A stretch of DNA of 64,000 bases, from the NCBI GenBank assembly GCA_029865845.1, contig JARXAM010000027.1, positions 84,956 to 148,955 on the forward strand. Direction: 5' to 3'. The notes under the pieces were generated by a model. That model worked only from the letters and a program-made list of their open reading frames with translations. It ran no database searches and had not been told where the DNA came from. Position numbers and translations under genes: made by a program. Below, one piece after another: positions 22,666-27,349 of the stretch; position 1 is the stretch's first letter; every line of letters starts with the position of its first letter. The stretch is from Rhodoferax sp. (GTDB lineage: Bacteria > Pseudomonadota > Gammaproteobacteria > Burkholderiales > Burkholderiaceae_C).

Positions 22666-22752
22666 ATCAGCACTCCACGATATTCACCGCCAGTCCGCCA
22701 CGGGCGGTTTCTTTGTATTTGGTTTTCATGTCGGCACCGGTTTCGCGCATGG
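22666..22752. repeat. Left 87-bp direct repeat: orphan copy of sdaA 3' end (includes stop codon)
   Basis: ATCAGCACTCCACGATATTCACCGCCAGTCCGCCACGGGCGGTTTCTTTGTATTTGGTTTTCATGTCGGCACCGGTTTCGCGCATGG; matches 25960..26046 with 2 substitutions. Confidence 0.95.
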
Positions 22753-22802: not shown

Positions 22803-23798
22803 ATGAATCAGCTTGATGTTCTGTACCAGCTTGAGAGGCTTCTAGCCAGCCCTCAGCCTATGGGGCGTGACGCACTAATGAGCAAGTTGGAGGTATCCAG
22901 GGCGACGCTCAAGCGCTATTTGGAAATCCTGCGCAACAGAATGAATGTACCTATCGAGTACGACAGGTGTACAAATACATATGCCATTCAACGCAACGTC
23001 GGCGCGAGCGGCTTCGCATTGGATCGCCAAGAGCTTCCCGGCGTCTGGTTCAGCCAACAGGAACTGATTGCTCTTTTGACCATGTCAAAGTTGATTGGCG
23101 AACTCGACGCCACGGGAATGCTTCACCGCCAACTGCGACCAATTTTGGAGCGGCTGGACAAAATGTTGGGCTGCACACCAATGCAATCCCAAGAGTTCCA
23201 GCGCCGCGTTCGCATTCTTGGGGTCGCTCGTCGAGAGGTTTCAAATCAGTTTTTTGAACGGGTTGGCCTCGGACTTACCCAACGCAATCAACTGCATGTC
23301 AGATATTTCACGCGCAGTCGGGGAGTAGAAACCAGTCGCATTCTTTCACCGCAGCGACTTGTCCATCATCGACACACGTGGTTCTTGGATGCTTGGTGCC
23401 ACGCGTCATGTTCGCTAAAGCGCTTTGCTTTGGATGCATTTCGCGAGGTGCAAGTCTTGAAAGATGCAGCCCACAATGTTCCCGTTAGCGAGGTGGAAAA
23501 AGCATTTGATGTTGGCTACGGTATCTACCATGGAGACAGAATTCGGTGGGCTACATTGGTGTTTACTGCACGTGCATCTGCCTGGGTCGCTTTGGAACAG
23601 TGGCATCCTGATCAAAAAGCGCGGCGACTGGCCTCTGGCTCGTTGGAGTTGAAGGTTCCTTATACCAACGATGAAGAGTTGCTGATGGATATACAGCGTC
23701 ACGGCGCTGATGTAAAGGTCAAGGCACCTGCCGCGCTCAGGAACAAATTACTGAACGGGTTGAAGCAGGCAGTGACGCAATACGAGAACGGCGAATGA
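22803..23798 (+). CDS. WYL-domain transcriptional regulator
   Basis: N-terminal HTH MNQLDVLYQLERLLASPQPMGRDALMSKLEVSRATLKRYLEILRNRMNVPIEYDR; C-terminal WYL-like LHVRYFTRSRGVETSRILSPQRLVHHRHTWFLDAWCHASCSLKRFALDAF. Confidence 0.85.
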   Translation: MNQLDVLYQLERLLASPQPMGRDALMSKLEVSRATLKRYLEILRNRMNVPIEYDRCTNTYAIQRNVGASGFALDRQELPGVWFSQQELIALLTMSKLIGELDATGMLHRQLRPILERLDKMLGCTPMQSQEFQRRVRILGVARREVSNQFFERVGLGLTQRNQLHVRYFTRSRGVETSRILSPQRLVHHRHTWFLDAWCHASCSLKRFALDAFREVQVLKDAAHNVPVSEVEKAFDVGYGIYHGDRIRWATLVFTARASAWVALEQWHPDQKARRLASGSLELKVPYTNDEELLMDIQRHGADVKVKAPAALRNKLLNGLKQAVTQYENGE

Positions 23799-23874: not shown

Positions 23875-24264
23875 ATGCTGCGACAGGATTGGGGATTCGA
23901 CTACACGGCTGCAAACTTGGCGGAAGCCGCCGCGCAAAAGAAGGCGTTTCATCAAGAACGCTTTGATTGGTGGAAGAATAAGCGCGACGAGGTAATGAAC
24001 ACCATTCGAACTGAGGGACTGGAGATCGATGAAAAGATTGCCCTTGAGTACAGGAGTCCAAAGTCCCGTGATTGGGATCGAAGTTCGCAAGTGATGGTGC
24101 GTAACGATCTGCAAAAGGATCTCAATGAATGTGTAGAAAAACTCAGTCATCACACCTCATTTATCCAACAATATGTTGGTTGGCAACAGGTGCTAGCGGC
24201 GAATCCCGAGTCTCGGGTTAAGTTGGATATTGATGATTGGTTGTTCTTCTTCAGTCGCAATTAA
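23875..24264 (+). CDS. Hypothetical protein, mostly helical (129 aa)
   Basis: Uninterrupted ORF MLRQDWGFDYTAANLAEAAAQKKAFHQERFDWWKNKRDEV..., plausible RBS (aaggagtattt), co-oriented in the cassette; no recognised family. Confidence 0.75.
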   Translation: MLRQDWGFDYTAANLAEAAAQKKAFHQERFDWWKNKRDEVMNTIRTEGLEIDEKIALEYRSPKSRDWDRSSQVMVRNDLQKDLNECVEKLSHHTSFIQQYVGWQQVLAANPESRVKLDIDDWLFFFSRN

Positions 24265-24300: not shown

Positions 24301-24969
24301 GTGGATAAGTTATCAATGCTTCATATGTTGGGGAAAAAGAGGAGAGTGTCTGCATTAGGAGATTATAGAAATATTGGGTTTTATCATGACGGCGCATATG
24401 ATTGTGATTGGGTGTCTCCATACACAAAATCAGCTTGCAATATAAATGCAGACGTCATGGTCGTACTTCAGGATTGGGCTTCGGACTCAGACTTAAGCAA
24501 AACACTGGATCCTGATGTCGTGGAATATGGACTGACGCCTAATGCACCTACAAATACAAATTTAAAAAACTTGCTTTGGACGCATTTAAAGCTAGAGCTT
24601 AAGGATGTTTTTGTGACCAATATGTTTCCTTTCGTCAAGCTCGGGGCAATGAGTGATTCAATTCCAATAGGGGCTATGTTGCGTGCCGCGCGCGATTATT
24701 GTCAGCCACAAATTGATATCGTAAGGCCCGCGCTTGTGATTTGCACCGGTATTGCGGTGTTCAATGTTCTTCGTAGGATCCATAAGTTTCCTAGAGTGAA
24801 GAATGCGGACGAAGGCATCAAGAGTCCATTTGTTGTGGGCGCGACAACATATTATTGTCAGTCGCACCCCGGTATGCTTGGCAAAAACAACAGGCAGCGT
24901 CATGGCAGGCGTGACCAAGTTGCTAAAGATTGGGAAACAATGGCGAAGGTATTGAAAGGCCAATCGTGA
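24301..24969 (+). CDS. Uracil-DNA glycosylase-superfamily-like protein (GTG start)
   Basis: VMVVLQDWASD, TNTNLKNLLW, DVFVTNMFPFVK, IVRPALVICTGIAVFNVLRR, CQSHPGMLGKNNR: layout of UDG-fold blocks. Confidence 0.7.
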   Translation: MDKLSMLHMLGKKRRVSALGDYRNIGFYHDGAYDCDWVSPYTKSACNINADVMVVLQDWASDSDLSKTLDPDVVEYGLTPNAPTNTNLKNLLWTHLKLELKDVFVTNMFPFVKLGAMSDSIPIGAMLRAARDYCQPQIDIVRPALVICTGIAVFNVLRRIHKFPRVKNADEGIKSPFVVGATTYYCQSHPGMLGKNNRQRHGRRDQVAKDWETMAKVLKGQS

Positions 24970-25802
24970 CTTTGAAGCAAGCCGCAGAAATTGTCTCTTC
25001 TGCCGATGCGCTTTTCATCTGCGCTGGTGCGGGGATGGGGGTTGATTCTGGACTTCCAGACTTCCGAGGCAATGAGGGATTTTGGAAGGCATATCCAGCA
25101 TTAAAGAGTGTAAACCTGCGTTTTGCGGAAGTTGCGAGCCCTTTCACTTTTGCGGAAGATCCAGTGTTGGCTTGGGGCTTTTATGGACACAGGTTGCAGC
25201 TATACAGGAATACCCAACCGCATCAAGGGTTTGCAATACTAAAGAAGTGGGCAAAAGCGAAGTCACTTGAATGGCGTGTATTCACCAGCAATGTGGACGG
25301 GCAATTTCAAAAAGCAGGGTTTGACGAGTCAAATATTTACGAGTGCCATGGTTCCATACACCATCTTCAGTGTATGGATGGATGTTCAAACCATATTTGG
25401 GATGCGGAATCGTTTAAGCCCATAGTGAATGAATCTACTTGTCGGCTGATTTCCGCATTGCCTAAGTGTCCGCAATGTGACGGTTTGGCCCGACCCAACG
25501 TCATGATGTTTGGTGACGGTGGTTGGCAAAGTCACCGTAGCCAATCTCAAGAAGATCGCTTGGAAAACTGGCTTTCCAGATTGGCCGACCAAAGCGCGCG
25601 TTTGGCGGTGGTTGAAGTTGGCGCGGGAACATCCATTCCATCTGTCCGTACATTTAGTCATTCGTTGATTCGTCGCTATGGCGCGCGCCTTGTACGAATA
25701 AATTTGCGTGAGCCTCAGGTTCCCAATCTTGATCATGTCGGCTTGGAGATGGCCGCATTGAGTGCATTGAAAGAAATAGATTCCTACATAAATAGGTTCT
25801 AG
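24966..25802 (+). CDS. SIR2 (sirtuin) family protein
   Basis: GTG start overlapping the upstream stop (GTGA); ICAGAGMGVDSGLPDFRG, FTSNVDGQFQKAGF, ECHGSIHHLQC, two cysteine pairs (C..C ... CPQC), VEVGAGTSIPSVRTF. Confidence 0.9.
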   Translation: MTLKQAAEIVSSADALFICAGAGMGVDSGLPDFRGNEGFWKAYPALKSVNLRFAEVASPFTFAEDPVLAWGFYGHRLQLYRNTQPHQGFAILKKWAKAKSLEWRVFTSNVDGQFQKAGFDESNIYECHGSIHHLQCMDGCSNHIWDAESFKPIVNESTCRLISALPKCPQCDGLARPNVMMFGDGGWQSHRSQSQEDRLENWLSRLADQSARLAVVEVGAGTSIPSVRTFSHSLIRRYGARLVRINLREPQVPNLDHVGLEMAALSALKEIDSYINRF

Positions 25803-25959: not shown

Positions 25960-26046
25960 ATCAGCACTCCACGATATTCACCGCCAGCCCACCACGGGCG
26001 GTTTCTTTGTATTTGGTTTTCATGTCGGCACCGGTTTCGCGCATGG
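25960..26046. repeat. Right 87-bp direct repeat: native 3' end of intact sdaA
   Basis: Same sequence as 22666..22752 except two third-codon-position changes. Confidence 0.95.
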
Positions 26047-27349
26047 TCTTGATGACCTTGTCCAGGCTCACCATGTGGCTGCCGTCGCCACGCAGGGCCA
26101 TGCGGGCGGCGTTGATGGCTTTGACCGACGCAATGGCGTTGCGCTCTATGCAGGGTATTTGCACCAGCCCACCCACCGGGTCGCAGGTCAGGCCCAGGTG
26201 GTGTTCCATGCCGATCTCTGCGGCGTTTTCCACCTGCTCGGGGGTGCCGCCCATCACCGCGCACAGGCCAGCGGCTGCCATGCTGCACGCTACGCCCACC
26301 TCGCCTTGGCAGCCCACCTCGGCACCGCTGATGGAGGCGTTTTCTTTGTAGAGGATGCCGATGGCGGCTGCGGTGAGCAAAAAGTCCGTCACGCCTGCGT
26401 CACTGGCCCCAGGCAAGAAGCGGCTGTAGTAGTGCAGCACAGCGGGGATGATGCCGGCCGCGCCGTTGGTCGGTGCGGTGACCACGCGTCCGCCTGCGGC
26501 GTTTTCTTCGTTCACGGCCAGGGCATAGAGGTTGACCCAGTCCATCACCTGCAAAGGGTCTTTGAGCGCGGCTTCGGGGTTGCGGGTGAGCGCGGCATAC
26601 AGGCTGGGCGCACGGCGCTTGACTTTGAAGCCGCCGGGCAAAATGCCCTCGGTACGGCAGCCGCGCTGCACACAGTCTTGCATGACATGCCAGATGCGCA
26701 AAAGGCCGGTGTCGATGTCGGCATCGCTGCGCCAGTGCTGCTCGTTACGCCGCATCACCTGGGCGATGCTTAGGCCTTCGCGGTGGGCGACTTGCAGCAA
26801 GGCATCGCCGCTGGTGAAGGGCAAGGGCAGCACGGTGGCATCTGGGGCAATGACCTTTTGGCGGCTTCCATCGGCGGCCACGTGGTCGCTCACGATAAAG
26901 CCGCCCCCCACCGAGTAATACACGCGGTTGGACAGCTCTTGCCCTGCGGCGTCCAGTGCGACCAGGCGCATGCCGTTGGCATGAAACGGCAGCGGCGCTC
27001 GCATGAACAGCAGGTCTTCCTTTTCGTTGTACGCAATGGCGTGTGCCCCTGCCAGCACGATGCGTTGCGTGCTGCGGATAGCTGCCAACGTGGGGGCGAT
27101 GTGGTCGACCTCGACGGTGTCTGGCTCCAAGCCCGAAAGCCCCAACAGCACTGCCACATCGCTGGCGTGGCCCTTGCCTGTGGCCCCCAAAGATCCATGC
27201 AGCCAGCAGCGCACCGTGGCAGTGTGGGATAGCAATTTGTCGGCTTCCAGCCGTGCCACAAAGAGCCGTGCGGCGCGCATGGGGCCCACGGTGTGCGAGC
27301 TGCTGGGGCCGATGCCGATTTTGAAGAGGTCAAAGACAGAAATGGCCAT
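25961..27349 (-). CDS. sdaA: L-serine ammonia-lyase
   Basis: [27 protein letters not shown]... ; [22 protein letters not shown]...[25 protein letters not shown]. Confidence 0.96.

Follow-up and report, generated by a model that had tools for sequence, protein, structure and literature searches.

A QDW lineage within the UDG superfamily, and a member on a mobile island in Rhodoferax with a plausible anti-phage role

The window, a 64,000-nucleotide stretch of a Rhodoferax sp. contig, contains a gene whose product near certainly has the uracil-DNA glycosylase (UDG) fold and belongs to a lineage that we designate QDW, after its motif A. The QDW proteins are a new, unnamed subfamily; the UDG fold and the superfamily were already known. 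The window protein looks active, as predicted from its motifs, but fits no named UDG family, and its gene sits on an island that is foreign to this chromosome and mobile. The explanation that we prefer, and to which as a whole we give an even chance, is that the protein is a monofunctional glycosylase that would attack foreign DNA containing uracil or modified thymine, carried on a mobile, WYL-regulated island with a Sir2-family protein as its partner.

The glycosylase ORF (24301-24969, plus strand) is intact and encodes 222 amino acids from a GTG start, which is backed by the relatives, whose methionine aligns with residue 1. A reading made from the sequence alone had placed the protein in the UDG superfamily on the basis of five sequence blocks; the ORF and all five blocks are present exactly as described. 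The placement was confirmed by Pfam model PF03167 (UDG; E 2.6e-5, 24.8 bits against a cut-off of 24.3), by matches in the PDB, and by the predicted fold. A PDB search with the window sequence alone returned nothing useful, but a profile built from 12 sequences of the lineage matched family-4 UDGs at E 2.6e-9 to 3.7e-7. The AF2 model, computed from a 12-row alignment, has a pLDDT of 87.5 and a pTM of 0.87, with poor confidence only at residues 194-201. In a Foldseek search of the PDB, the best match to this model was the family-4 enzyme 4zbx (E 1.7e-9, TM 0.65/0.74); family-4 UDGs ranked first, followed by UdgX, TDG, and SMUG1. Among viral structures, the model matched phage UDG-like proteins and the UDG domains of phage polymerases. 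The Pfam score is just over the cut-off; together with the lineage profile and the AF2 fold, it lifts the assignment above chance. The NCBIfam family-4 model TIGR00758 scored far too low (20.3 bits against a cut-off of 125.3), and no PADLOC or PHROGs model matches the window glycosylase.

The putative active site is made up of three motifs, all on the plus strand and all invariant in the lineage: the motif A core Gln57-Asp58-Trp59 (24469..24477), Thr106-Asn107 (24616..24621), and the motif-B histidine, His189 (24865..24867). In the profile alignment to PDB chains, Asn107 falls on S. tokodaii N82 and His189 on the motif-B histidine of family 4. LQDWA is aligned with the GEGPG or GEQPG of family 4 and UdgX, so that Gln57 replaces the Glu that serves as the general base in family 4 (PMC10359453). 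Asp58 falls on Ala, Gly, or Gln, at the site of the catalytic Asp64 of family 1, and is the predicted water-activating residue. Position 60 is Ala, Ser, or Gly in the QDW proteins; it corresponds to family-1 Tyr66, the residue that shuts out C5 substituents. An insertion in the alignment prevented us from placing the stacking Phe of families 1 and 4. Motif B reads HTG, HPG, or HCG in the lineage where family 4 has HPAYLLR.

Asn107 is predicted to read the Watson-Crick face of the base. The residue at the S. tokodaii N82 position has this function, and Brig1 has Glu147 there (PMC11078745); D127, which is essential in Brig3 (PMC13160076), is its apparent counterpart. The Asn at this position is invariant in the QDW lineage, which predicts a base of the uracil/thymine type and not hmC. 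Exchanging this Asn for Asp makes Ung a cytosine glycosylase. Judged from these residues, uracil, hmU, or a hypermodified thymine is a likelier substrate than hmC or glucosyl-hmC. A phage DNA with a hypermodified thymine is that of Delftia phage phi W-14, which contains putrescinyl-thymine (PMC6449724).

We searched whole genomes, genome contigs, viral contigs, and phages for relatives. QDW genes are few: they were found in three of 399 genomes of the order, the window's own included. Loci turned up in Acidobacteria, Nitrotoga, another Burkholderiales MAG, Fictibacillus, Paenibacillus, and a Gemmatimonad; SPbeta-like phages carry relatives, with Bacillus phage SPR found in the phage search; and one more QDW genome was found in the class of an Acidobacteria relative. 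Viral contigs contributed a handful of loci: a scan with a single-sequence query found no relatives, and scans with three alignment queries found no loci other than L014-L016, L068, and L069, apart from repeats. Plasmid searches returned no QDW relatives. The weak class-wide profile matches that were inspected proved to be family-4 UDGs wherever a motif was readable, and not members of the lineage.

The first motif had been called non-canonical, neither GQDPYH nor GEAPG. This is correct (motif A is LQDWA, and the motif B region is SHPGML) and the motif is unusual; however, it is no peculiarity of the window gene, because LQDW is a fixed motif of its lineage. A local mutation was ruled out, as 13 loci share the motif, one of them with TGA at the Trp codon. 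Of the 13 sequences examined, 12 have [L/G]QDW as motif A, and the other (L009) has the TGA in place of its Trp codon. The L009 gene (also L003), from Burkholderiales MAG ES-bin-258, reads QD-stop-SSD in an otherwise intact frame, and its in-frame TGA marks either a pseudogene or an assembly error. With that TGA taken as Trp, the residues invariant over 12 sequences include Q57, D58, W59, T84, T106, N107, H189, G191, D210, and W211, and the QDW, TN, and HxG motifs are invariant across 12-13 sequences.

We calculated a maximum likelihood tree that also took in family-4 UDGs and the UDG domains of phage polymerases. All QDW proteins lie on one side of a branch with 100/100 support, which separates them from family 4. 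The lineage consists of two branches, one with GQDWG proteins and one with LQDW[A/S][S/C]D proteins. The latter is itself supported at 100/100 and includes the window protein, which has the longest branch of its clade. The two branches differ in the four cysteines that bind the Fe-S cluster of family 4. The GQDWG branch keeps the CxxC, the Cys after TNxxL, and the Cys before the next helix in six of seven sequences, whereas the window's branch has lost these cysteines in all six of its sequences. The simplest reading of this pattern is that a family-4-like ancestor with an Fe-S cluster would have acquired the QDW change first and lost the cluster later; as the tree is rooted at the midpoint only, we infer this order. 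QDW proteins form a coherent lineage whose motif A is a hybrid: the Gln-Asp of family 1, joined by an invariant Trp that is new, is set on the scaffold of family 4. The GQDWG branch, with its Fe-S cysteines retained, is a visible intermediate.

UDG families are defined by motif A, and the sequence-only reading had suggested a comparison with families 1-6 and Brig1. On the features tested, no family matched the window protein, and it is not an ordinary repair UDG with a clear family. Family-4 UDGs (TthUDG 1ui0, S. tokodaii 4zbx, and T. maritima 1l9g) share its fold (E 1.7e-9 to 7e-8), its Asn and His motifs, and its overall sequence profile; however, they carry GE[A/G]PG in motif A. Membership in family 4 was ruled out by motif A, the absent Fe-S cysteines, and the TIGR00758 score. 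Family-1 UDG (Ung, GQDPYH) has the Gln-Asp of motif A in common with the window protein, but the Pro-Tyr-His of that motif and the HPSPLS of motif B are missing, and LQDWAS and SHPGML in their place ruled out family 1; no family-1 UDG was among the fold or profile matches listed. Families 2, 3, 5, and 6 (Mug/TDG, SMUG, UDGb, and HDG) were ruled out by LQDWA, from which the motif A sequences of families 3, 5, and 6 differ. The motif A of family 2 is GINPG (PMC10359453). UdgX, defined by GEQPG and the KRRIH R-loop (PMC10359453), shares the fold and the family-4 ancestry; it was ruled out by motif A and by a gap in the profile alignment at KRRIH. The anti-phage glycosylases Brig1 and Brig3 resemble the QDW proteins in belonging to the UDG superfamily and in their accessory, defence-type contexts (PMC11078745, PMC13160076). 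They have an acidic residue at the base-reading position (E147 in Brig1 and, apparently, D127 in Brig3), in contrast to Asn107, and this residue and the different motif A, compared by published residues, ruled out membership. The UDG-like N-terminal domains of family-A DNA polymerases from phages PMBT14 and P744 (L150 and L151) have a weak sequence match to the GQDWG branch; their motif A is GDNP or GDAP, without QDW, and they fall outside the QDW clade. These DNA polymerase I genes adjoin dCMP or cytidine deaminase genes.

The glycosylase gene is located on a 3.2-kb island with 48% GC (44% in the gene itself), in a neighborhood of about 65% GC. The island lies between direct repeats of 87 nt that are 98% identical: the left one (22666..22752) is a copy of the 3' end of sdaA, comprising the last 28 codons and the stop, and the right one (25960..26046) is the 3' end of the intact sdaA gene (25961-27349, minus strand). 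The low GC content and the flanking repeats point to a foreign origin; no integrase was found on the island. In a genome of the same genus (G463), a second sdaA 3' fragment lies about 1.08 kb from the intact end (L051, 1957-2041 and 3036-3170), and the repeats enclose two small ORFs that, judged by eye, resemble a toxin-antitoxin pair. Small cargo that lacks an integrase may insert repeatedly at the sdaA 3' end. Besides the window gene, its genome carries three genes of the UDG superfamily, one of them with GQDPYH, and each of the five other QDW genomes checked has at least one in addition to its QDW gene, which argues that the window gene is not a housekeeping gene.

The island carries four genes, all on the plus strand: a WYL-domain transcriptional regulator (22803..23798, likely start ATG at 22803; Pfam WYL, WCX, and HTH_11), a 129-aa protein of no known family (23875..24264; no Pfam or NCBIfam match) that ends 36 nt upstream of the glycosylase, the glycosylase, and a Sir2-family protein of 278 aa (24966..25802; Pfam SIR2, 3.7e-24), whose start overlaps the glycosylase stop (GTGA). 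The Sir2 protein carries features of active sirtuins, namely the NAD-binding GAG, NVDG, CHG, and Cys pairs. Its relatives, with 50-58% identity, occur in Burkholderiales genomes and on plasmids. One of them is fused to a WYL regulator in a single ORF (L144), another is part of an operon with WYL, AAA-ATPase, Sir2, and a MavL-type macrodomain (L093), and a third follows a KptA gene (L140). WYL and Sir2 are therefore associated independently of the glycosylase, probably in conflict systems linked to NAD and ADP-ribose, as surveyed in PMC9503650, and the glycosylase is a variable component. This Sir2 type recurs beside WYL regulators and ADP-ribose/NAD enzymes (MavL macrodomain, KptA, and a HIT protein), and it is possibly a conflict system of its own. 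Relatives of the 129-aa protein, 40-80% identical, occur in scattered genomes of the same family unaccompanied by the rest of the island, one of them near an integrase-like ORF (L129). The neighborhoods of the Sir2 and 129-aa-protein relatives in other genomes contained no further QDW gene; thus, the exact four-gene set was seen only at the window locus.

The surroundings of other QDW genes bear on the suggestion that the window enzyme recognizes a modified phage base. On two viral contigs, one per branch (L014 and L068), the QDW gene occupies a moron position: it is flanked by genes for a gpA-type terminase and a lambda-family portal and is encoded on the strand opposite to them. In Paenibacillus (L013), what comes after the QDW gene is a gene for a 190-aa protein, a small ORF resembling a pyrophosphohydrolase, and a PLD-ResIII helicase classed by PADLOC as a type IV methyl-directed restriction enzyme (5.1e-90). 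Elsewhere, the QDW gene is directly 3' of an Mrr_cat endonuclease (L149) or of a DUF429 gene that is the PADLOC candidate PDC-S44 (L012), and one has a large serine recombinase nearby (L007). An HsdS fragment suspected after the QDW gene in L007 was not confirmed by Pfam. Most of the close relatives in the LQDW branch have no clear defence genes alongside. As a control, PADLOC was run on the neighbors of nine QDW loci and of 13 ordinary-UDG loci from five QDW genomes and the window's own. The ordinary-UDG loci also gave a few hits (HNH, SoFic, and PDC-S01), and there was no clean separation; with these control hits and only nine QDW loci, the enrichment of defence genes is suggestive and not demonstrated. 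The phages, the moron positions, some restriction-enzyme neighbors, and the mobile island fit an accessory role against foreign DNA, whereas the neighbor control does not set the QDW loci apart. As a member of a rare branch that also occurs in phages and beside enzymes that cut modified DNA, the window glycosylase is probably not a housekeeping repair enzyme but an accessory weapon aimed at foreign DNA whose bases are unusual, and an anti-phage role is plausible.

Under the explanation that we prefer, the QDW branch would have split from the family-4 side of the superfamily, with the Fe-S cluster lost in the window's sub-branch, and the enzyme would be catalytically competent, monofunctional, and directed at pyrimidines. 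It would flip a pyrimidine into its pocket, where Asp58, at the family-1 general-base position, would activate water, Asn107 would recognize a base of the uracil/thymine type by its Watson-Crick face, and His189 would stabilize the leaving base. As an accessory enzyme on the WYL-regulated island, presumably coupled translationally to the Sir2 protein, it would most likely make abasic sites in foreign (phage) DNA carrying uracil or C5-modified uracil or thymine. The glycosylase and the Sir2 protein are presumed to cooperate.

Unlikely, but a serious contender, is a plain uracil-DNA glycosylase whose motif A has diverged; it would excise unmodified uracil, either as a redundant repair enzyme or as one directed against phage DNA that contains uracil, and might not respond to the inhibitor Ugi. 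In its favor, motif A has regained the family-1 Gln-Asp, the protein retains the uracil-reading Asn and the motif-B His, and the enzymes closest to it in structure are specific for uracil; yet the genome already has its three UDG-superfamily genes, the distribution is rare, scattered, mobile, and phage-borne, and the invariant Trp and the altered motif B suggest a changed pocket. We consider it distinctly improbable that the fold is dead or re-purposed, binding modified DNA or an ADP-ribose-like ligand as the sensor of a WYL/Sir2 system. The family-4 general base is indeed lost, and the ties of the Sir2 relatives to WYL, MavL, and KptA mean that the operon may concern NAD/ADP-ribose chemistry; however, the next position has regained an acidic residue, in family-1 style, and no member has lost any of the three catalytic motifs. 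A Brig-like enzyme for the modified cytosines (hmC and glucosyl-hmC) of T-even-like phages is very unlikely. Against the common superfamily and the presence of a SIR2-domain gene and an ADP-ribosyl glycohydrolase in the vicinity of Brig1 (PMC11078745), which loosely resembles the Sir2 partner here, stand the base-reading position, invariantly Asn and neither Glu nor Asp, and a motif A unlike the Brig3 pocket residues N50, P51, S52, R53, and E55 (PMC13160076).

A more elaborate reading, which we regard as a long shot, has the Sir2 protein strip acyl or ADP-ribosyl groups from hypermodified uracil or thymine in phage DNA, the QDW glycosylase excise the base so exposed, and the WYL sensor act as the switch. 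If true, this two-enzyme defence would be the thymine-side counterpart of BapA-Brig3. QDW glycosylases could also serve for detecting modified thymines. The QDW proteins form a small, testable group in which to ask whether base-excision immunity, as known from Brig1 and Brig3, has a separately arisen thymine/uracil branch.
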